Shown here piece after piece: positions 43,730-59,437 of a stretch of DNA of 64,000 nucleotides. The position numbers and the translations under genes are program-made. This DNA is from Chloroflexus sp. Y-396-1 (GTDB taxonomy: Bacteria; Chloroflexota; Chloroflexia; Chloroflexales; Chloroflexaceae), in the NCBI RefSeq assembly GCF_000516515.1, contig NZ_KI911784.1:3448633-3512632 (forward strand), written 5' to 3'. The notes below the pieces were generated by a model. It was not told the origin of the DNA, made no database searches, and worked only from the letters and a program-made list of their open reading frames with translations. The first letter of the stretch is position 1. Every line of letters starts with the position of its first letter.

Positions 43730-43735
43730 GTCAAG

Positions 43736-44030
43736 CAATGGCGATGACGGGGACGAGTACCTATTGCCTGCTCTCCAGCGAGCCTGGGATGGTGGAAGCC
43801 AGGTAGAAGCAGCGATAGCGAAAATCACCCCTGAGCTGGCAGGTGAACTGCGTGGTCAGATGATCTGCATAGTAGCTGCGCCCGGAATGCCCACCGTTAT
43901 CGGGCATAGCGTTGCTTGACGCTCACAGAGTGCGATGACTCGTGATAACGGCTCACGGCATCGAAGTGGGGTGGTACCGCGGGGCTTCTCGGCCTCGTCC
44001 CCTAATGGGGACGAGGCTATTCATTTGGTT
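43736..44030 (+). promoter_or_regulatory. T-box riboswitch, Ile specifier, upstream of ileS
   Basis: tRNA-sensing leader about 295 nt long. Stem I shows the distal block AGCGAGCC-GGTGGAAGCC (about 43777-43799) that contacts the tRNA elbow. The specifier is ATC (43824-43826), an Ile codon, followed by the usual ACCCCTGAGC. The antiterminator carries the T-box core GGTGGTACCGCGG (about 43970-43982). A terminator hairpin GCCTCGTCCCC / GGGGACGAGGC (43992-44002 and 44007-44017) follows. Uncharged tRNA-Ile should stabilise the antiterminator and turn ileS on. Confidence 0.95.
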
Positions 44031-44044
44031 CAGATGGAGGCACT

Positions 44045-47000
44045 ATGTTCAGACCGGTTGATACAAATGTCAAATTCCCTCAGCTTGAAGAATCGATTCT
44101 TACCTGGTGGGAAGCCAACGACATCGTAGCAAAATCGCTGGCAGCAGGCGAAAAGCCGTTTGTCTTCTACGAAGGTCCGCCAACATCGAACGGTCGTCCG
44201 GGATTACACCATACCATCTCGCGGAGCTTCAAAGATGTGATCCTACGCTACCGTGCAATGCAGGGCTATCGCATCATCGGTCGCCGTGAAGGTTGGGATA
44301 CCCATGGCCTGCCGGTCGAAATTGAGATTGAAAAGAAGCTCGGTTTCAGCGGTAAACCTGATATTGAGCGCTTCGGGATCGCTGAGTTTAACCGTCTCTG
44401 CCGTGAAAGCGTTTGGGAATATATCCAGGACTGGAAGGCGTTTACAAAGCGAATCGCGTTCTGGCTGAGCGAAGATGCCTATATTACTTACGAAAATGAC
44501 TACATCGAGTCAACCTGGTGGATCTTCCGTCAGTTGTGGGATCGTGGTCTGTTGTTCCGCGACTACAAAGTGACCATGCACTGCCCCCGCTGCGGCACTA
44601 GCCTCAGCGACCACGAGGTTAGCCTCGGCGCCCGCGATGACGTTGATGATCCCAGTGTCTACATCAAGTTCCGGGTGAAAGGTTCGACGGTACCACCACC
44701 AGCCGTTAATGGTACCCTTGAGGACGCATTCCTGGTGGCCTGGACGACAACGCCGTGGACGCTGCCGGCCAATGTTGCCCTGGCCGTGAAACACGATGCG
44801 GAATACGTTGAAGTTGAGCACCATGGTGAGCGTTTGGTGATGGCTGCTGCGCTCTTGAATCAGGTGTTGCCAGCCGATAGCTTTACCGTGTTGCGCCAAT
44901 TCCGCGGCAACGATCTGGTTGGTCTGCGCTATGAACCCCTCTTCCGTGGTGTGCCCGGCGCCGGTGATACCGTCGATTGGGATACTGCTTACCGCGTAAT
45001 TGCCGATGAAATCGTTAGCCTCGATGACGGTACCGGCATTGTACACATTGCGCCAGCTTACGGTGACCTTGAGGTTGGACGCAAGCACGGCCTGCCGACG
45101 CTCTTCTCTGTCGGTTTAGATGGACGAGTATTGCCTGAGTTTGCCGATCTTGGCTTCGCCGGCAAGTTCTTCAAGGAGGCCGATCCGGATATTACGCGCA
45201 ACTTGAAGCAGCGTGGTCTGCTCTTGCGTAGTGGTCGGGTACGCCACTATTATCCCTTCTGCTGGCGCTGTAGCACACCGCTCCTCTACTATGCTAAACG
45301 ATCCTGGTACATCCGCACGACGGCGTTTAAAGCCGATCTGGTTGCCAACAACCAGCAAATCCACTGGGTGCCAGAGCATATTCGCGATGGTCGCTTCGGC
45401 AACTGGCTCGAAAACAACATCGATTGGGCGATCAGTCGTGAACGCTACTGGGGAACCCCCATCCCGATCTGGACGAACGCCGACGGTTCGTATATGGTCT
45501 GTATCGGTTCGCTCGCCGAGTTAGAGGAAAAGGTCGGTCGTTCGTTACGTGATCTCGACCTCCATCGTCCGTACATCGACGAGGTGGTGTGGGAAGACCC
45601 CGAACATGGTTTGATGCGGCGTATTCCTGATGTGGCCGACTGCTGGTTTGACAGTGGGTCAATGCCGGTGGCACAGTGGCACTACCCCTTTGAAAACCGC
45701 GACATCTTCGAGATGGCCCATCCCGCCGACTACATCTGTGAAGCGGTCGATCAAACTCGCGGTTGGTTTTACACTTTGCACGCCATCAGTACCCTACTCT
45801 TCGACCGCCCAGCCTTCAAGAATGTGATCTGTCTGGGTCATATTCTTGATGAAAATGGGCAAAAGATGAGCAAGAGTCGCGGGAATGTGATAGAGCCGGA
45901 AGAGGTGATCAATGCTTACGGCGTTGATGCGTTGCGCTGGTACCTGTTTACCGCAGCACCTCCCGGTAATGCCCGTCGCTTCAGCATGGCGCTGGTGAGC
46001 GAAAGCATGCGCAAGTTCTTGCTCACACTCTGGAATACGTATGCTTTCTTTGTGACCTACGCCAACCTCGACCGCTGGCAACCGGGTAGCGGACGCACCG
46101 TCGATCTCCAACCAATCGACCGCTGGGCACTGGCCGCGCTTAACCAGCTTGTGCAGCAGGTGACCAGTTCGTTCGAGGAATACGACGTTTACACGGCAGC
46201 CAATGCCATCGAACACTTTGTTGATGAGCTGTCGAACTGGTATGTGCGTCGTAACCGTCGCCGTTTCTGGAAGAGCGAAGCCGACGCTGATAAAGAGGCT
46301 GCCTACCAGACCCTCTACACCTGTCTGGTGACGGTAGCAAAGCTATCGGCGCCGTTCATCCCATTTGTCAGCGAGGAAATCTATCGTAATCTGGTTGCCG
46401 AACACGATCCGACAGCCGCCGAGAGTGTGCATCTGGCGCGTTGGCCACAAGTCGATCAATCGCTGCTCGATCCGCAACTAGTCAGCGACACCGAAGCTCT
46501 CTTGACTGCCGTCTCGTTAGGTCGCGCAGCTCGCAAGCAGGCTAACTTGAAGGTTCGGCAGCCGCTGAGCGAAATCTGGCTGCGGGCGAGCACGCCTTCG
46601 CTTCTCAACGGGGTGCGACGCTTTGAAGCCGATCTGCGCGATGAGCTAAACGTGAAAGCGGTGCGTTACCTCGATGCGAGCAGCGCGGTTGTTGAATACC
46701 GCCTAAAACCGAATCTGCGTCTCGTAGGCAAGAAATTCGGTAAGCTGGTACCAGCGATCACCGCAGCATTGCGCGATCTGCAGGGCGATGCGTCGCGGAC
46801 AGCAGCTCAGGCCGTAGAGTCTGGTCAGCCGATCCAGATCACGGTAGACGGTCAGGTCGTGGAGTTGCTCGCGGAAGAGGTGTTGGTCGAGAGTAGCGGG
46901 CCAGCAGGCTATGTCGTTGTGGAAGCCGATGGTATGCTGGTGGCGTTGAATACGACCGTTACCGAAGAGCTACGGCTCGAAGGTGCAGCTCGCGATCTGG

Positions 47001-50297: not shown

Positions 50298-50927
50298 CTA
50301 CTCTATCTTGCCCCGACCGTGTACGTTCGTCACAACCGGTTGTGGATGCGTTGCCTCATACTCTGCGATGAGCGCCTCTTGATTGAGCAAAAAGCCTAAT
50401 TGATCAACTCCGTGCAAGAGGCAATATTTGCTGAACGCATCAATTGGGAAACTAATCTGCCGACCGTTGGGCAGGGTGACCGTTTGGGCTGCGAGATCGA
50501 TAACCAGGTGCATTTGGGGATCAACTGCATAATGCGCTACCAGCTCATCGTAGACGGTCTGATCGACCGTCACCGGTAATAACCCGATCTTCAGCGCATT
50601 GCTGCGAAAAATGTCGGCGAACGATGGAGCAACAACGGCGCGAAAGCCGTAATCTTGTAATGCCCAAGGGGCATGCTCACGAGAGCTACCGCAACCAAAG
50701 TTACGCCCACTGATCAGAATCGTTGCTCCGGCCGCTTCGGGCCGATTGAGTGGGAAGTCAGGATTGAGCGTACCATCGGATCGGTAGCGCCAGGCCTCAA
50801 ACAGACCGGCAGCCAGACCGCTCTTATCGGTAACCTTCAGAAACCGCGCCGGAATAATTTGATCGGTGTCAATATTGTCAACCGCTAAAACAACCGCTTT
50901 TCCGGTAATCATTGAAATCGGTTCCAC
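50298..50927 (-). CDS. leuD: 3-isopropylmalate dehydratase small subunit LeuD
   Basis: Small subunit of isopropylmalate isomerase in leucine synthesis. The 209-residue protein has NIDTDQIIPARFLK and the swivel-domain motif GRNFGCGSSREHAPWAL. The GTG at 50927 is chosen: AAGGAG lies 6 nt upstream and the family usually starts M-E-P. An ATG at 50942 that overlaps the leuC stop (ATGA) is the alternative. Last gene of the ilv-leu operon. Confidence 0.95.
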   Translation of the reverse strand: MEPISMITGKAVVLAVDNIDTDQIIPARFLKVTDKSGLAAGLFEAWRYRSDGTLNPDFPLNRPEAAGATILISGRNFGCGSSREHAPWALQDYGFRAVVAPSFADIFRSNALKIGLLPVTVDQTVYDELVAHYAVDPQMHLVIDLAAQTVTLPNGRQISFPIDAFSKYCLLHGVDQLGFLLNQEALIAEYEATHPQPVVTNVHGRGKIE

Positions 50928-50938
50928 AGCGATCTCCT

Positions 50939-52366
50939 TCATACATTCAACAGAGTACGTGGATCGGTAACGACACCGGTCACTGCTGCGGCAGCCGCAG
51001 TAAGCGGACTGGCCAGCATCGTGCGTGCTCCTGGCCCTTGCCGACCCTCAAAGTTGCGGTTCGAGGTGCTGATTGCATACTTACCAGGCGGAACCTTGTC
51101 GTCATTCATCCCCAGACACGCACTACAACCGGCTTCGCGCCACTCGGCTCCTGCCTCTTTGAAAATTCGATCCAGCCCTTCCGCTTCGGCTGCCCGCTTA
51201 ACCTGTTGCGAGCCGGGAACCACCATCACGCGCACACCGGGGGCAACCTTACGCCCACGGAAGAATTGGGCGGCCTGACGGAGATCCGACAACCGCGAGT
51301 TGGTACAAGAGCCGATAAAGACCACATCAACCGGATGTCCCAACAATGGCTTACCCGGTTCGAGACCCATATAGGCCAGCGCCTTATCAAGTGCGGCCCG
51401 GCTACGCGCATCGGGCATATCCTCTGGCCGCGGAACCGGTGCGTCAATCGGAATTCCCATGCCGGGGTTGGTGCCGTAGGTAATCATCGGTTTCAGATCA
51501 CTTACCGAGAGGGTTAGTTCGTGGTCGAACACTGCACCTTCATCGCTGGGCAATGTGCGCCAGCGGGCGACTGCCGCTTCAAAATCAGCCCCTTTCGGTG
51601 CAAAAGGTCGCCCCGCAATATACTCAAAGGTCGTGTCATCAGGCGCCACCATTCCGGCGCGGGCACCGCCTTCGATACTCATATTACAAATGGTCATCCG
51701 CTCTTCCATCGAAAGCGAGCGGATTGCCTCACCCATGTACTCGAACACATAGCCGGTGCCGCCACCGACACCGTATTTGGCAATGAGCGCCAGAATAATG
51801 TCCTTTGCCGTTACCCCAGGACTAAGCCGACCATCGATGCGTACCGCACACGTCTTCGGTTTTCGTTGTAAGAGACATTGCGTTGCCAGCACGTGCCCCA
51901 CCTCAGACGTGCCAATCCCAAACGCTAAGGCTCCAAATGCGCCGTGGGTACTGGTATGGCTATCCCCACAGACAATCGTCATTCCTGGCTGAGTTAGCCC
52001 TTGTTCGGGTCCGATCACGTGGACAATGCCCTGATTCTCGTCGCCTAACTCGAACAATGGAATACCAAACTCGGCACAGTTTTTACGTAATTGCTCAAGC
52101 TGGCTGATCGCCATTGGATCAACGACCGGAATAATCCCCAAATGATTGCGGGGGGTAGTCGGCGTACTGTGATCCATCGTGGCGAGCGTCTTATCCGGGC
52201 GACGCACGCGCAGACCACGCTGGCGCAATTCGGTAAATGCTTGTGGCGAAGTAACTTCGTGAATCAGATGGAGATCAATGTAGAGTACTGCTGGCGTCTC
52301 TGGTGTCTCTGGACGTACTATATGGGCTTCCCAGACCTTATCAAACAGGGTGCGCGGTTTACTCAT
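50939..52366 (-). CDS. leuC: 3-isopropylmalate dehydratase large subunit LeuC
   Basis: Iron-sulfur subunit that interconverts 2- and 3-isopropylmalate. The 475-residue protein shows [32 protein letters not shown], the cluster ligands in [15 protein letters not shown] and SACLGMND (Cys residues), and [29 protein letters not shown] precedes the ATG. It begins 20 nt after pheA and is followed at once by leuD. Confidence 0.97.
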
Positions 52367-52386: not shown

Positions 52387-53238
52387 TTAACCAGAATTGC
52401 CGTTCGTGCCACGCCAGCGCGGATAACTGCCAAAAATCTTCAGCATCCCAGTGTGTAGCCGAATCCGCTCTAAAGCGCGGGCAACGTGTGGTTCGCGGCG
52501 GTGTCCGTTAATGTCAACCAAAAAGATGTATTGGCCGAGTATTGCACGGGTCGGGCGTGACTCGAGTTTGGTCATGTTGATATTTTCGACTGCCAGTTCC
52601 TGAAGGGCGGTGACGAGACTGCCCGGTCGATCTTCGCGAGTGAAACCGAAACAAAAGCTTGTCTTGTCGTCACCGGTTGGCGGCGAGTCTTCTCGCGCCA
52701 GCACGATGAAGCGCGTAACGTTATGAGGGCTGTCGGCAATATCACGGGCTAGAATCGCAGCACCAACAAGTTGGGCTGCGCGTAAGGTACCAATCGCAGC
52801 CGCCGGACGCTCATCAGCCATTGCTTCCGCGGGTGCAGCCGAATTGCTGAGCGAAGCAACAGTTGCCACACCGGGTAAACATCGTTCCACAAAGCGCCGA
52901 CATTGAGCGAGCGATTGTGGGTGGGCGTACAACACCTTGATGTCACTCAGTTGTAATCCCGGACGTGCCAGCAGGTACTGTCGGATTGGTACGACAATTT
53001 CGCCCGCAATTTGCAAGTTGGTCTCGTGGATCAGCAGATCAAGGGTATAGCTGACACTGCCCTCAAGCAGATTCTCAATTGGCAAAACACCAACGGTAGC
53101 CGCTTCAGTTTCAATCGCTGTGACCACCGCAGGGATGCTCACCAGAGGGAGCAGCCGCGCTTCCCGCCCCGCTGCGTAAGCGAGCGCTGCTTCTTCACTA
53201 AAGGTTCCTGGTGGACCAAGATAGGCAATAGTTTGCAT
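52387..53238 (-). CDS. pheA: Prephenate dehydratase PheA
   Basis: Converts prephenate to phenylpyruvate. The 283-residue protein begins [18 protein letters not shown], has [13 protein letters not shown] and the TRF motif [11 protein letters not shown] of the catalytic domain, and ends with an ACT domain. ESRPTR in the ACT domain is the usual Phe-binding motif, so feedback inhibition by Phe is expected. ATG at 53238 or 53241; no clear ribosome site. Its place inside the ilv-leu operon is unusual. Confidence 0.94.
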
Positions 53239-53288
53239 CATACGTGTGTGTAGGCAGGCTGATCCGATATCGTCAGTGGGTAGATGTG

Positions 53289-53407: not shown

Positions 53408-55114
53408 CTAGCCGAGCGTGCTACCGCCAAAGATGTCAACCGGCAAACTACTCGTCTCGCCGCTGTAGCCAGCAGAATAGGCCATCGCTTCCGCCTTAAT
53501 CCGCTCCTGGCGCGCCGCTAACATCTTATTGAGGGCAGCCATATACGCCTGGGCGGCAGCCACGATGGTATCGGTATGTACCCCATAACCACTGAAGATC
53601 TGCTGGGTTGGACGACGACCGGTCAGGCTGATTGCAGTGCTGCTACTCTCGTTCAAGCGGGCAGGTGAACCTTGCTCACGAATGCGCACCGTCACTTCGG
53701 CGACCGCATCAAGCCCCTCAGTGATGGCATTGATCGAGAACTCAATCAACTCGTTGGGACGCTGAATGATGCGGTTGATCGCCTGATAAACAGCATCGAC
53801 CGGCCCGGTACCCTGGGCGCTGTCAACTTTGGCTTGACCATCAGGCCCGATCAGGCGCACGGTTGCCGTCGGAATCATCCCGACACCTGATGCGTATTGC
53901 ACGTGATCGAGTTTATACAACTCTGGGGTATGCTGCATCTCACCGGCGATCAATGCCTCAATGTCGCGATCATCGACTCGCTTCTTCCGATCACACAGGT
54001 CTTTGAAGCGAGCAAAGACGTGCTGGAACTCCTCTTCGTTCAGCTTGTAGCCCTTTTCTTCGAGATACTTGCGGAAGGCATGGCGACCTGAGTGTTTCCC
54101 TAACACCAGCGTATTGCTTTCCAGCCCCACTGTCTCGGCACTCATGATCTCGTAAGTCTGGCGATACTTCAAGACACCATCCTGATGGATGCCCGATTCG
54201 TGGGCAAAGGCATTGGCGCCAACGATAGCCTTGTTCGGTGGCACCGGTATGCCGATAAAGCTACTGACCAGTCGTGAAGTACGGGCAATTTCGCGGGTCT
54301 CAATCCGTGTCCGCAGGCCATAATATTGTTGGCGTGTATGCAATGCCATCACCACTTCTTCCAGTGAGGCATTACCTGCCCGTTCACCGATACCGTTGAT
54401 AGTACATTCAACTTGCCGGGCGCCGGCACGCACACCGGCCAGCGAATTAGCAACTGCCATGCCGAGATCGTCGTGACAATGGGTCGAGAGGATGCACCGT
54501 TCAATGCCCGGTACATTCTCGCGCAAATCGCGGATCATCGCCCCATACTCATCAGGGGTGAGATAACCGACCGTATCGGGAATATTGAGGGTGGTAGCTC
54601 CGGCGGCCACGGCTACGGCTACAGCTTCACGCAAGAAGAGCGGATCGGTGCGACCGGCATCCATCGGTGAGAACTCAACATCCTCGCACAGCGATCGCGC
54701 ATAGCTGACCATTTCGTGAATCAGCTCCAGGGCTTCGGCGCGTGTTTTACGAAACTGATATTCGAGATGAATGTCTGAAGTTGACATAAATGTGTGAATG
54801 CGCTTTTTCGCTGCCGGTTGGATCGCACTCCACGCCTTATCAATATCGTCACGGTTGGCGCGGGCCAGTGCTGCGATAATCGGGCCATCGGGTGTACCGA
54901 TTTCACGGGCAATTTCGTGCACCGCCGCCCAATCACCGGGCGAAGCAGCCGGAAAACCGGCCTCGATAATGTCTACCCGCAGTCGGGCCAACTGGCGGGC
55001 GACCTCTAATTTCTCTTCTAGCGTCATGGTACAGCCGGGCGCCTGTTCACCATCGCGCAGGGTTGTATCAAAGATCCGAACGTACTCTACACTCGGTTCA
55101 GTTGTGTTGGTCAT
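53408..55114 (-). CDS. leuA: 2-isopropylmalate synthase LeuA
   Basis: First committed enzyme of leucine synthesis, joining acetyl-CoA to 2-ketoisovalerate. The 568-residue protein has FDTTLRDGEQAPGCTM, HCHDDLGMAVANSLAG with the metal-binding HxH, NGIGERAGNASLEEV and LGKHSGRHAF. A C-terminal regulatory domain (about 400-550) is present, so Leu feedback is likely. AGGAGGTAACT precedes the ATG at 55114. It sits 70 nt after ilvC. Confidence 0.97.
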   Translation of the reverse strand: MTNTTEPSVEYVRIFDTTLRDGEQAPGCTMTLEEKLEVARQLARLRVDIIEAGFPAASPGDWAAVHEIAREIGTPDGPIIAALARANRDDIDKAWSAIQPAAKKRIHTFMSTSDIHLEYQFRKTRAEALELIHEMVSYARSLCEDVEFSPMDAGRTDPLFLREAVAVAVAAGATTLNIPDTVGYLTPDEYGAMIRDLRENVPGIERCILSTHCHDDLGMAVANSLAGVRAGARQVECTINGIGERAGNASLEEVVMALHTRQQYYGLRTRIETREIARTSRLVSSFIGIPVPPNKAIVGANAFAHESGIHQDGVLKYRQTYEIMSAETVGLESNTLVLGKHSGRHAFRKYLEEKGYKLNEEEFQHVFARFKDLCDRKKRVDDRDIEALIAGEMQHTPELYKLDHVQYASGVGMIPTATVRLIGPDGQAKVDSAQGTGPVDAVYQAINRIIQRPNELIEFSINAITEGLDAVAEVTVRIREQGSPARLNESSSTAISLTGRRPTQQIFSGYGVHTDTIVAAAQAYMAALNKMLAARQERIKAEAMAYSAGYSGETSSLPVDIFGGSTLG

Positions 55115-55182: not shown

Positions 55183-56205
55183 TCAGGCGCCACCCTCGCC
55201 GGGTTTAACTTCACGCGGATTCACGAAGGGCATCATACGGCGCAGTTCACGGCCAATTTGTTCAATTGGATGATTGATGTCGGCCTGACGATACGCATTA
55301 AAGCGGGGGCGTCCATTGTGATTTTCCTCGATCCAGTCTTCTGCGAAGGCACCGCTCTGGATGTCGGCCAGAATCTGGCGCATAGCCGCCCGCGTTTGAT
55401 CGGTGATGATCTTCGGGCCAGCGGTGTAATCACCCCACTCAGCAGTGTCACTCACCGAATAGCGCATGTAGTTGAGGCCACCCTGGTAGAAGAGGTCGAC
55501 GATCAGCTTCAGCTCGTGCATACACTCGAAATAGGCAACTTCTGGCTGATACCCGGCCTCTACCAGAGTCTCGAAAGCAGCTTTGACCAGCGCACTCACT
55601 CCGCCGCAGAGCACAACCTGTTCACCGAACAGATCGGTCTCCGTCTCCTCGGCGAAGGTTGTCCGCAACACGCCAGCACGAGTACAGCCCAGGCCCTTGG
55701 CGTAAGCCAGGGCGTCCTCGAACGCACCGCCGGTCGCGTCTTGTTCAACCGCGATCAATGCTGGCACGCCGCCGCCTTGAACAAACACCTCACGCACGCG
55801 ATGGCCAGGCGCTTTAGGCGCGACCATACTGACGTCAATCCCCTTTGGAGGCACAATCTGACCAAAGCGAATATTGAAGCCGTGGGCGAACATTAACGTC
55901 TTACCGGGTTCCATTGCTGGTGCGATGTGCTCGCGGTAGAGTTCGGCCTGACCGATGTCGGGAGTTAACATCATCACAATTTGGGCTTCGCGAGCGGCCT
56001 CTGCAACGGTCATAACCTTCAGGCCAGCAGCTTCAACTTTAGCCCAGCTCTTCGAGCCTGGATACAGACCAACGCGCACGTCGAGACCACTATCGGCGAG
56101 GTTGCGGGCATGGGCGTGACCTTGGCTGCCAAAGCCAATGATGGCGATTGGTTTGTTCTTCAAGCGGTTAAGGTCGGCCTGATTGTCGTAGTAGAGTTCT
56201 GCCAT
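55183..56205 (-). CDS. ilvC: Ketol-acid reductoisomerase IlvC
   Basis: Converts acetohydroxy acids to dihydroxy acids using NADPH and Mg. The 340-residue class I enzyme has the Rossmann motif [34 protein letters not shown] with the metal-binding Asp/Glu, and [12 protein letters not shown]. Between it and ilvN lies a hairpin at 56270-56294. Confidence 0.98.
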
Positions 56206-56307: not shown

Positions 56308-56847
56308 CTAGTTTAGTACCGGTACTGTAGCGCCGTTCGTTGTCGGCTCTACATACTCACTGGCGTTATGACCGCGCGCACCACGTACCATGGCAATACG
56401 TCCGGTGCGCATCATCTCTTTGATACCGTAAGGCCGTACCACTTCGATGAAATTCTCGACCTTACCCGGCGTACCGGTCATCTCGATAATCATCGTGTTG
56501 GTGCCTACATCGACGATCCGCGCCCCAAAGACACTACACATCGAGATAATCTCGTGGCGCACGGCTGGCGGTGCATGCAACTTAATCATTGTCATTTCGC
56601 GTTCGACCGTCGGATCATCGGTGACATCACTGACTTTGATCACTTCAATTAACCGGTAGAGCTGTTTTACTACCTGCTCAACGTCTTCCGATTCAACGAC
56701 CAGCGTGAGACGGCTAACACCGGGGGTTTCACTATGTCCGACGGCCAGGCTCTCGATGTTATAGCCTCGGCGGCGGATCAATCCAATGACACGGCTCAGT
56801 ACACCGGGTCGATCTTGTAAGAGGGCAACGATGGTGTGCGTTTTCAT
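56308..56847 (-). CDS. ilvN: Acetolactate synthase small subunit IlvN/IlvH
   Basis: Regulatory subunit of acetohydroxyacid synthase. The 179-residue protein starts with an ACT domain (THTIVALLQDRPGVLSRVIG then RRRGYNIESLAVGHSE), the usual valine-binding site, followed by the ALS_ss C-terminal domain. AGGAG lies before the ATG at 56847. It follows ilvB by 37 nt. Confidence 0.97.
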   Translation of the reverse strand: MKTHTIVALLQDRPGVLSRVIGLIRRRGYNIESLAVGHSETPGVSRLTLVVESEDVEQVVKQLYRLIEVIKVSDVTDDPTVEREMTMIKLHAPPAVRHEIISMCSVFGARIVDVGTNTMIIEMTGTPGKVENFIEVVRPYGIKEMMRTGRIAMVRGARGHNASEYVEPTTNGATVPVLN

Positions 56848-56884: not shown

Positions 56885-58627
56885 CTACGCCTGTGATTCT
56901 GAGAGGATCATCTCACCAATTGACTTGTTCTGCGGTACCATCGGGAAGACGTTGACTTCACGCTCAACCCGGAAATCGATCAGTACCGGCCCGTCGGTTG
57001 CGTAGGCCTCATCAATTGCATCTTGCACATCTTCGCTGCGCTCTACCGTCAGCCCCTTCCAGCCGTAGGCTTCGGCCAGTTTTGCAAAGTTGGGGCCTGA
57101 CAGGGGGGTACCGCTGTAGCGTTTGTGCTCGAACAACTCTTGCCACTGCCGGACCATTCCCAGGTAGCCGTTGTTGATCACTGCTATCTTGATATTCTTT
57201 AGCCCTTCCTGCACAATCGTTGCCATTTCCTGGTTGGTCATCTGGAAGCCACCGTCGCCCACGATAGCCCAGACGGTATCGTTAGGGCAGGCGATTGCCA
57301 CGCCTAGCGCTGCCGGTACTGCGAAGCCCATCGTGCCGGCGCCACCCGATGTAATGTGTGTGCGCGGGCCAGCGTTCCAATCGATCAACTGCGCTGCCCA
57401 CATCTGGTGCTGACCAACATCGGTAACGACCCGATAGTTGCCACGGGCATTGAGGGTACGACTTAACGCCTCATAGACATCGTGCGGTGGTAAGGCCATG
57501 TTGGCCATTGCAGCCCGATTCTTGTACTGCTGCTTTCCCTGATGCTTATCTTGCATTTCACGGATATGCTCCATCCAATCCGAAGCATGCGTATGCAGCT
57601 CGGCTAGCTCGCTCGGTGGTGGCAAGTCTTCAAGCAGGGCCTGTAGAACAAGGCGGGCATCGCCAACAATCGGCACATCAACCCGCACGTTCTTCCCAAT
57701 CTCTGAAGGATCAATGTCAACGTGAATAATGCGAGCATGGGGAGCAAAGGTGCTTGCCTTTCCGGTCACCCGGTCATCAAAGCGACCGCCGATATTGAAG
57801 AGCACGTCACATTCTTGAATTGCCCGGTTAACGTGTACCCAGCCGTGCATACCGGGCATACCGATACATAGGGGGTGATTTTCAGGAATTGCACCGATGC
57901 CGTGTAGTGTCGTAATCACCGGAATGCGTAAGCGTTCGGCAAACTCTTGCAGTTCGCGATGAGCGCCGGACATAATAATTCCGTGACCGGCGATAATCAA
58001 AGGTTTCTTCGCACTGATCAACAGCTTGATCGCTTCACGAATCTGACGGCGATTCCCCTGATAGGTTGGTTTATAACCGGGCAGGTTGAGCTTAATATCC
58101 CAATTGGGCACTGTTGTCTTCTGCATCGCATCCTTTGTGATGTCGATCAAGACCGGGCCAGGTCGGCCGGTTGTGGCAATATAAATAGCCTCTTTGAAGA
58201 CATAAGCCAGCTCATCGACATTCTTCACCAGGTAGTTGTGTTTGGTGATCGGCATCGTGATACCGGTGATGTCGGTCTCTTGAAACGCATCCTTACCAAG
58301 GACGTGGCTCCCGACCTGACCGGTGATCGCCAATAAGGGGGTACTATCCATCATCGCATCGGCAATCGGCGTCACTAAATTAGTAGCGCCAGGGCCGCTG
58401 GTACCGATACAGACGCCAATTTTGCCCGTAGCACGGGCATACCCTTCAGCGGCATGACCGGCGCCTTGCTCGTGGCGGCAGAGCACATGGCGCAGCCGGT
58501 CTCGGTAATCCCACATCGCGTAGTAAAAGGGCATAATTGCGCCGCCGGGAATTCCGAACATCACTTCGACCCCCTCGCGGATGAGGGCCTCACACATGAT
58601 CTGGGCACCGGTGAGTGGTTTGGTCAT
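56885..58627 (-). CDS. ilvB: Acetolactate synthase large subunit IlvB
   Basis: Thiamine-diphosphate enzyme that makes acetolactate and acetohydroxybutyrate. The 580-residue protein has GIPGGAIMPFYYAMWD, HEQGAGHAAEGYARATGK with the catalytic Glu, SGPGATNLVTPIADA, and the ThDP motif GDGGFQMTNQEMATIV followed by NNGYLGMVRQWQ. AGGAGTAGTCCG precedes the ATG at 58627; the frame upstream is non-coding leader. First structural gene of the operon. Confidence 0.98.
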   Translation of the reverse strand: MTKPLTGAQIMCEALIREGVEVMFGIPGGAIMPFYYAMWDYRDRLRHVLCRHEQGAGHAAEGYARATGKIGVCIGTSGPGATNLVTPIADAMMDSTPLLAITGQVGSHVLGKDAFQETDITGITMPITKHNYLVKNVDELAYVFKEAIYIATTGRPGPVLIDITKDAMQKTTVPNWDIKLNLPGYKPTYQGNRRQIREAIKLLISAKKPLIIAGHGIIMSGAHRELQEFAERLRIPVITTLHGIGAIPENHPLCIGMPGMHGWVHVNRAIQECDVLFNIGGRFDDRVTGKASTFAPHARIIHVDIDPSEIGKNVRVDVPIVGDARLVLQALLEDLPPPSELAELHTHASDWMEHIREMQDKHQGKQQYKNRAAMANMALPPHDVYEALSRTLNARGNYRVVTDVGQHQMWAAQLIDWNAGPRTHITSGGAGTMGFAVPAALGVAIACPNDTVWAIVGDGGFQMTNQEMATIVQEGLKNIKIAVINNGYLGMVRQWQELFEHKRYSGTPLSGPNFAKLAEAYGWKGLTVERSEDVQDAIDEAYATDGPVLIDFRVEREVNVFPMVPQNKSIGEMILSESQA

Positions 58628-58951
58628 CGGACTACTCCTGTTACAATGAAATTGCGAACATACAACCCTTTGGAGACGCAGACATACCAGCGGTCTTGAG
58701 CGCTGCATTGCGCTTGACCTTCTACAACGACCGAGTCGCCAACCAACGGGCCACAGCAGTGGGGCTTTTCGCCGCTACTCACCGCGATGTGAGTGACCGA
58801 GCGCGGAGCAATGCGTCGGTACGACGGCGGTGAACTGTCGGATACACAAGCTGCCGGACGGATACAACCGGCACGAGCATCGGTTGCGGCTGTAGCATCA
58901 AGTGTACGATATCGTTCATAAGCCGCAACATCTGGAACCTCACAAGGGTAC
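58628..58951 (-). other. Leader segment between attenuator and ilvB
   Basis: About 320 nt of untranslated leader, after the attenuator terminator and before the ilvB start. No gene or further terminator is seen; it is GC-rich with short inverted repeats. Confidence 0.5.
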
Positions 58952-58979
58952 TAAAAAACCTCCCGAACATCGGGAGGTT
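58952..58979 (-). terminator. Attenuator terminator upstream of ilvB
   Basis: Minus strand: stem AACCTCCCGA / TCGGGAGGTT (10 bp, 3-nt loop) followed by TTTT. A GGGAGG at 59017-59022, at the leader-peptide stop codon, can pair with CCTCCC of the 5' arm and so could form an antiterminator. Confidence 0.88.
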
Positions 58980-59021
58980 CAGTCTTGCATCCTGCACTGG
59001 GGCTTTGCGTCCTTCCCCTCC

Positions 59022-59105
59022 CTAAGCACGTCTGCTCCACCCGCCGATAAGGCTAAGGAGGAGTACGAGTACGAGAAGGATAAGGCTTACAAAGCGAGCA
59101 GTCAT
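59022..59105 (-). CDS. ilv-leu operon leader peptide
   Basis: A 27-codon open frame (ATG at 59105, TAG at 59022-59024) between the promoter and the attenuator terminator. Of residues 6-20, thirteen are Leu, Val or Ile (8, 3 and 2). This is the pattern of branched-chain attenuator peptides such as IlvL and LeuL. Its weak AAGAG ribosome site lies about 10 nt upstream. When Leu/Val/Ile-tRNAs are scarce the ribosome should stall inside this run, free GGGAGG to pair with the terminator arm and let transcription reach ilvB. The mechanism is inferred from sequence. Confidence 0.85.
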   Translation of the reverse strand: MTARFVSLILLVLVLLLSLIGGWSRRA

Positions 59106-59437
59106 AGATTTGTACTCTTTGCCTAAATTCCTGATCCGCGATGAGGATACCACACACTTCTCAGTTTGTCAACCGGAATTTGTGAACCTGTAAGGCTTGT
59201 TACGACTATAGCGTGTGCTGGGATGTGCTGCTACCTGTACCAACGGTGGTCTCTACGGTCAGCCCCCGTTCTTGCGCCGGGACGCGGTCTATGGGACACC
59301 TGCATAGGGGAGAGGTGTCGATGCCTTCCAGACTCCTCCCCACTGTGACCATAATCCGTCATCTCCGACGGGGGGCTAGGCACTCTTCGCATGACAGGCC
59401 CAGACAACGTGGCCCATCCCTGTACCGTCCACCGTCC
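59106..59437. other. 332-bp intergenic region
   Basis: Holds the ilv operon promoter (59144-59172). From 59173 to 59437, beyond the end of the NYN gene, I see no recognisable feature. Confidence 0.5.
59144..59172 (-). promoter_or_regulatory. Promoter of the ilv-leu operon
   Basis: Minus strand: TTGACA (59167-59172, perfect), a 17-nt spacer and TATCCT (59144-59149). It predicts a transcript start near 59137, about 30 nt before the leader peptide. Confidence 0.85.

Follow-up and report, generated by a model that had tools for sequence, protein, structure and literature searches.

A putative leader-peptide attenuator upstream of ilvB in Chloroflexus, and its distribution across the Chloroflexota

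The DNA upstream of ilvB in Chloroflexus sp. Y-396-1 very probably encodes a ribosome-mediated transcription attenuator. Sequence and comparison show the parts of this putative leader, their order, their conservation, and the possibility of alternative pairing; ribosome stalling, coupling, read-through on starvation, and control of the distal genes we infer. The mechanism is classical. What we report is a widespread new occurrence of a known kind, in a phylum for which we found no description of it. The window that we analysed is a stretch of 64,000 nucleotides from this genome.

The preliminary description of this DNA had placed a promoter, a 27-codon peptide, and a terminator in that order before ilvB. 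All three are located there, on the minus strand, and the claimed 13 Leu/Val/Ile among residues 6-20 proved correct when recounted. The parts of the leader are:

59144-59172, minus strand: promoter, with -35 TTGACA (59172-59167), a 17-nt spacer, and a TG-extended -10 TATCCT (59149-59144)
59022-59105, minus strand: leader peptide ORF, 27 codons and UAG (59024-59022), with its ATG at 59105
59055-59063, minus strand: region 1, the Leu codons CUC CUC CUU, complementary to region 2 (candidate protector pairing)
59015-59023, minus strand: region 2, AGGGAGGGG in the sequence, overlapping the peptide stop; candidate 5' strand of the antiterminator
58970-58980, minus strand: region 3, the 5' arm of the terminator, GAACCUCCCGA; alternative partner of region 2
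58956-58966, minus strand: region 4, the 3' arm of the terminator, UCGGGAGGUUU
58953-58958, minus strand: terminator U-run of six U

The promoter matches the consensus at 10 of 12 positions. The peptide reads MTARFVSLILLVLVLLLSLIGGWSRRA up to its stop codon, and GGGAGG at 59022-59017 overlaps the UAG. The Shine-Dalgarno sequence is weak (-2.4 kcal/mol). The terminator hairpin, GAACCUCCCGA-UGU-UCGGGAGGUUU (58980-58956), has a predicted energy of -17.4 kcal/mol and a z-score of -4.2, and 325 nt (58628-58952, minus strand) separate its U-run from the ATG of ilvB at 58627. (The corresponding distance is about 76 nt in the relatives L062 and L063.) Single promoter-like and terminator-like matches in this stretch are each at chance level (0.7 and 0.6 expected, respectively), so the window alone would not prove an attenuator, and the case rests on comparison.

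We propose that the leader would work as follows. RNA polymerase probably initiates about 30 nt upstream of the peptide's ATG, and a ribosome would follow on the leader. If charged Leu-tRNA (and Val- and Ile-tRNA) is plentiful, the ribosome would reach the UAG and mask the GGGAGGGG block on and after the stop; with the block masked, the CCUCCC/GGGAGG terminator would form and transcription would stop before ilvB. If these tRNAs are uncharged, the ribosome would stall in the Leu/Val/Ile run and mask the pyrimidine-rich Leu codons that are able to hold the G-block. The freed G-block could then pair with the 5' arm of the terminator, which would permit read-through into ilvB-ilvN-ilvC-leuA-pheA-leuC-leuD.

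To examine the distribution of the leader, we looked for homologs of IlvB, with cut-offs set per search: 57 of 60 genomes of the order had one, as did 132 of 150 in the class and 128 of 161 in the phylum. The order sample comprised 70 genomes with upstream DNA (those 57, plus 13 more from the window's family). For the rest of the class, we used 32 loci from its other orders; for the rest of the phylum, 40 loci were taken from the other classes, with a single locus for each family. Our strict scan required at least 10 Leu/Val/Ile in 15 residues and a terminator within 110 nt of the stop; the relaxed scan required at least 9.

An ORF with a Leu/Val/Ile run and a terminator lies upstream of ilvB (or of an ilvD that is placed first) in 66 of the 70 genomes of the order. 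The scan found 61 of these. The leader of L082 was recognised by eye because its 10-nt terminator loop exceeds the limit of the scan, and a longer record (L230), probably of the same genome as L135, showed the leader for that genome. In three Herpetosiphon-type genomes, the leader lies about 2.2 kb upstream and was found on 3-kb stretches (L307, L308, and L316). The four genomes without a leader are G052 and G129, where the contig edge intervenes; G064, for which 2.6 kb were covered, to the end of the contig; and G127, for which 3.5 kb were covered. Of the 32 loci from the rest of the class, 18 have the leader at the strict setting and 24 at the relaxed one. The remaining 8 have none even at the relaxed setting, and six of them, re-read over 3.5 kb, still showed none. 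In the other classes of the phylum, the leader was found in 9 of 40 loci (strict) or 11 of 40 (relaxed). By these counts, the putative leader is near-universal in the order, common in the class, and patchy beyond.

As a background, we ran the strict scan on reverse strands: a single match turned up in 176 kb and none in another 107 kb, whereas the sense strands yielded dozens. In a collection of bacterial and archaeal genomes, 20 of the best 80 named loci passed the strict setting. Three of these 20 are from Gemmatimonadota; L217, which bears a planctomycete label, is probably the same as G040 of the order, and L223 is probably the same as G013 of the order; the labels of the rest name Chloroflexota or a lineage within this phylum.

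The preliminary description had named alignment in relatives as a test of its proposal. That alignment came out in its favour: across the order, and partly beyond, relatives retain the Leu/Val/Ile run together with the promoter, the terminator arm, and the block complementary to that arm. Between families, it is mainly the Leu/Val/Ile run and the G-rich end that are kept, while N-termini and lengths vary. The leader peptides of the order have at least 22 residues (their start codons are not certain), as compared to 27 in the window. Some relatives, such as the Roseiflexus-type loci, have poor terminator U-runs.

In several genera, the leader is absent directly before ilvB but is found about 2.0-2.8 kb upstream, where it fronts a large ORF. 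This ORF is ilvD in L113 (by NCBIfam), and in the other genera we recognised it by its similar start. Judged by gene order, the candidate leader tracks the ilv operon even where the first gene switches from ilvB to ilvD. We also considered ilvD genes that are detached from the operon. We searched 16 genomes for such a gene; it is 43-47% identical to the operon type in 15 of them and 80% identical in G011. When the DNA upstream of these 16 loci was scanned, only L299 gave a match, which passes even the strict setting; it has no counterpart in the five other loci of its genus. The detached ilvD of the window's own genome has no leader by the scan. We also read 1.5 kb upstream of two other biosynthetic genes of this genome. 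No ORF before trpE has two Trp in 12 residues; before hisG, two ORFs contain three His, but a terminator-like site is absent. These results suggest that, among the genes tested, such control is confined to the ilv-leu cluster.

Some loci have unusual arrangements. In L285, two complete peptide-plus-terminator units stand in tandem (-2069 to -1783 relative to ilvB). In L137 and L143, both from family f12, there are several tRNA matches within 1.5 kb upstream of ilvB.

Can the conserved parts form an antiterminator? A GGGRG block that is complementary to the CUCCC arm of the terminator lies near the end of the peptide in 79 of 96 leaders, as compared to 28.4 expected by base shuffling. The block persists even though it is read as different codons or placed after the stop. 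Where the terminator arms differ, matching blocks can be found: UGCGGAAGG with CCUUCCGCA in L098 and L118, GCAUUGAGAGG with CCUCUCGGUGC in L097, GUUUAGGGGGUU with AACCUCCUGGAU in L062, and CGUUUGGGAGG with CCUCCCGAACG in L068. Among 60 distinct leaders, the pairing extends better beyond the core when a leader is matched with its own arm than when the arms are permuted (of 2000 permutations, 3 and 1 reached the observed values); in the window's genus, this extension is nil. Also, in 18 of 21 families, the family's own region 2 beats most region 2 stretches from other families on the same arm. Families f12, f30, and f52 do not follow this trend, and the advantage is practically nil in f4 (21 loci, 0.49) and f6 (0.48). 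A test of the antiterminator duplex at each locus gave values of 0.05 or below in 55 of 96 leaders. In six loci from other classes (L170, L176, L177, L179, L186, and L196), the antiterminator is not supported, so some such leaders may be chance matches or may differ in design.

We also folded the leaders as free RNA just before the 3' arm of the terminator is made. Because the model assumes a downstream ribosome footprint of 14 nt and equilibrium folding, we view it as a plausibility check, not as kinetic proof. Across the 96 leaders, the predicted antiterminator pairing was 0.85 with the ribosome in the middle of the run, 0.31 with the ribosome at the stop, and 0.52 when the ribosome was left out. 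The mid-run value was above the stop value in 94 of 96 leaders and above the ribosome-free value in 87 of 96. For shuffled leaders, the values were 0.49 mid-run and 0.40 at the stop, which is a difference of 0.095 versus 0.54 for the real leaders. For the window's leader, the predictions were 0.77 mid-run, 0.11 at the stop, and as much as 0.67 even without a ribosome. The predicted protector of this leader is a 9-bp duplex, CUCCUCCUU:AGGGAGGGG (59055-59063 with 59015-59023), and its fold is no stabler than those of shuffled sequences (z = -0.32). The duplex of regions 2 and 3 in the window is also no better than shuffles, as 19.5% of them pair as well. The antiterminator that the preliminary description drew between GGGAGG and the terminator arm gains in silico support across the relatives, while in the window alone it does no better than shuffled sequence.

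A variant of this scheme is that attenuation is real but that, in the window's genus, the antiterminator is formed by GGCGGGUGGAG, an in-frame stretch of Gly-Gly-Trp-Ser codons, while the GGGAGG at the stop pairs with GCCCC further on. This stretch, or the shorter CGGGUGGAG, gives the best duplex with the terminator arm in seven leaders (L052, L053, L055, L056, L057, L060, and L061), and GGGUGGAG is kept in most of the aligned leaders of the family. But the GGGAGG block gives the best duplex in the window's own leader (L051) and in L054, L058, and L059, and families without the GGGUGGAG block still retain GGGRG. We consider the variant to be rather unlikely.

Many leaders of amino acid operons work without ribosome stalling, and the leader before ilvB might likewise be a riboswitch, a protein-binding attenuator, or a T-box. 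A T-box also senses the charging of tRNA, which it binds directly, without translation. The preliminary description had claimed that the same chromosome uses a T-box for ileS, and a T-box leader (RF00230, 99.8 bits) does lie at 43735-44005 (plus strand), ending about 40 nt before ileS at 44045. (With so short a gap, the T-box may act on translation initiation.) It is the sole T-box in the window; the leader before ilvB matches no T-box model. Nor did any Rfam family of amino acid leaders reach its gathering score at the window's leader or at the 16 relatives' leaders that we scanned, and 19 loci that were first seen without a leader had no Rfam match. In favor of a leader without a stalling ribosome, T-boxes do occur upstream of ilvB within the phylum, as described below. 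However, the Rfam models that detected the T-box of ileS in the same window left the leader before ilvB without a match at the gathering score; and no such mechanism is needed to account for a conserved ORF whose run consists of exactly the cognate codons. We therefore view a leader without ribosome stalling as very unlikely.

In the sample from the other classes, seven of the 40 loci carry a sense-strand T-box no more than 2.7 kb upstream of ilvB: L169, L171, L173, L175, L195, L198, and L201. In L175 and L198, the T-box is about 2 kb upstream of ilvB. None of the seven has a leader, even at the relaxed setting, which suggests that the two sensors of charging may stand in for each other. Apart from these seven and the loci with a leader, the 40 show neither. 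Within the class, an Rfam scan of 15 loci gave a T-box in one, L164, which has no leader. The phylum offers a natural comparison between lineages whose ilv genes stand behind a leader peptide and lineages that have a T-box upstream of them.

The ORF itself could instead encode a real small hydrophobic membrane protein, in which case the terminator would merely end its short transcript or act as an insulator of the operon. In favor of this, the peptide's hydrophobicity is like that of a single membrane helix, and synonymous changes are in overall excess in its frame: 198 of 482 codon differences are synonymous, versus 28% expected (compared pairwise within 12 groups, so that the pairs are not independent). 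Third positions hold 299 of 600 base differences in the 12 groups, as for a translated frame. The picture varies from group to group: 7 of the 12 have more nonsynonymous than synonymous changes, and in 4 of the 12 the share of synonymous changes falls under 28%. Codon usage is skewed. In the 15-codon segments of the 96 leaders, Leu codons number 550, Val codons 284, and Ile codons 261. Of the Leu codons, 80% are CTC or CTT and 7% are CTG, versus 34% each in nine genes of the window; Val is GTA in 57% of cases, versus 14% in those genes. The skew is compatible both with a pyrimidine-rich strand that pairs with the G-block and with a preference for particular tRNAs. The skew of Leu codons to CUY and of Val codons to GUA speaks against a membrane protein. 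Such a protein also fits poorly with the variable N-termini and lengths between families, which mainly keep the run and the G-rich end; with the constancy of the GGGRG nucleotides while their codon reading changes or the block lies past the stop; and with the ORF staying with the ilv operon when its first gene changes from ilvB to ilvD. We judge a membrane protein to be most improbable. That a hydrophobic ORF stands beside an ordinary terminator by chance can be dismissed for the order, where the conservation and the reverse-strand background refute it, even though promoter-like and terminator-like matches are singly at chance level in the window.

A promoter-like pair (at least 9 of 12 matches) lies within 110 nt before the start codon in 76 of 96 leaders, as compared to 6% of shuffled stretches, and all 61 leaders of the order in this set have one. 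The median distance from the -10 element to the start codon is 35.5 nt. A clear Shine-Dalgarno match is present in just 32 of 96 leaders, which may mean that initiation is inefficient or follows a different mode.

Downstream of the leader, we identified seven genes by NCBIfam models that scored above their cut-offs:

56885-58627, minus strand: ilvB, acetolactate synthase large subunit (TIGR00118)
56308-56847, minus strand: ilvN/ilvH, acetolactate synthase small subunit (PRK11895 and TIGR00119)
55183-56205, minus strand: ilvC, ketol-acid reductoisomerase (PRK05479 and TIGR00465)
53408-55114, minus strand: leuA, 2-isopropylmalate synthase (PRK00915.1-3 and TIGR00973)
52387-53241, minus strand: pheA, prephenate dehydratase (PRK11898)
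50939-52366, minus strand: leuC, 3-isopropylmalate dehydratase large subunit (PRK05478 and TIGR00170)
50298-50942, minus strand: leuD, 3-isopropylmalate dehydratase small subunit (PRK01641 and TIGR00171)

The order is ilvB-ilvN-ilvC-leuA-pheA-leuC-leuD, on one strand throughout. Terminator-like sites inside the cluster number 13, not far from the 8.3 ± 3.1 expected (both strands, with the leader's own counted), including a weak hairpin in the gap between leuA and pheA (53333-53311). Promoter-like sites number 8, versus 6.1 ± 2.7 expected (again with the leader's own counted); an example is 52344-52317. Co-transcription of all seven genes is plausible, and from the gene order, the leader would control the entire operon, distal genes included. 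Although pheA lies within the ilv-leu cluster, Phe is encoded just once in the leader peptide of the window, and its supply is therefore probably not read by the leader.

In gammaproteobacteria, the leuL, ilvL, and ilvB leaders control ilv or leu genes by means of a run of cognate codons and mutually exclusive protector, antiterminator, and terminator pairings. The leader described here is similar in that it has a short peptide with cognate codons, could form mutually exclusive pairings, and precedes both ilv and leu genes. Unlike those leaders, it has no Rfam match; a single leader heads a combined ilv-leu-pheA cluster; and the control codons, CUC CUC CUU, can themselves hold the antiterminator block, which overlaps the stop codon of the peptide.

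Leader peptides of ilvB are also described outside of the proteobacteria. In Actinobacteria, passages of one paper describe ilvB leader peptides that overlap terminators, and they report that control codons had no effect in experiments with Streptomyces (PMC1262725). Passages of another describe a uORF at ilvB-II of Corynebacterium, with peptides of usually 15-17 residues and an alternative antiterminator (PMC10272879). The actinobacterial leaders resemble ours in having an I/L/V-rich uORF before ilvB and a terminator and, in ilvB-II, an alternative antiterminator (PMC1262725, PMC10272879). They differ in that the ORF and the terminator overlap (PMC1262725), while here the two are separate, with the antiterminator strand near the end of the peptide, and in that the ilvB-II peptides are usually 15-17 residues long (PMC10272879) versus 27 in the window. 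In Staphylococcus aureus, which belongs to a different phylum, a leucine-rich attenuator peptide of the ilv operon, as here, is reported to control the synthesis of branched-chain amino acids, there in combination with CodY (PMC5794164). The preliminary description had called our leader the "classic proteobacterial design." The outline is indeed that of a classical attenuator, but the label is too narrow, as Actinobacteria also have ilvB leader peptides, according to the same passages (PMC1262725, PMC10272879). Its placement of the chromosome in the Chloroflexota holds.

In the passages concerned, one paper lists motifs of Chloroflexi and does not mention ilvB (PMC2864571), and another refers to the Chloroflexi a single time, among groups for which few genomes or related strains are available (PMC4833913). 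Among the matches listed in our search of the open-access literature, we found no description of this leader in Chloroflexota, and we do not claim priority. The broad comparison of attenuation systems that Lopatovskaya et al. published in 2010 (Mol Biol 44:128) may well include cases from Chloroflexi. As the leader predicts control by Leu, Val, and Ile, it may help to annotate operons in this little-studied and partly photosynthetic group.

A 2013 survey of regulatory RNAs proposed that amino acid attenuators may originate in gammaproteobacteria, with very few transfers (PMC3766115). The survey used the four attenuator families that were then in Rfam and five genomes of Chloroflexi (PMC3766115). 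Since our leader has no Rfam match, surveys that use those models would miss it and its relatives, which occur throughout the order, in much of the class, and in parts of the phylum. We tentatively suggest that attenuation of the ilv genes is an old trait of the Chloroflexota instead of an import from proteobacteria, that it was swapped in place for a T-box in some lineages, and that it was carried with the operon into Gemmatimonadota. This history is quite possible, though we would not call it probable. If it is true, then one phylum shows two sensors of tRNA charging that replace each other at the same operon.

In three metagenome-assembled genomes of Gemmatimonadota (L218, L220, and L221), we found the same kind of leader about 2 kb upstream of ilvB. 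The IlvB proteins of six Gemmatimonadota MAGs nest inside Chloroflexales in a phylogenetic tree (a clade of 12 rows, with support of 100/99). Together with the leader, this suggests transfer of the operon plus its leader. L224 has only a weak candidate for a leader, and L219 and L222 have none. For the Gemmatimonadota leader, simple folding shows no clear drop in pairing at the stop (0.9 to 0.84). This leader has an extra hairpin, and its C-terminal codons, GGGAAGAG, could pair with the 5' arm of that hairpin, which would give five alternating segments.
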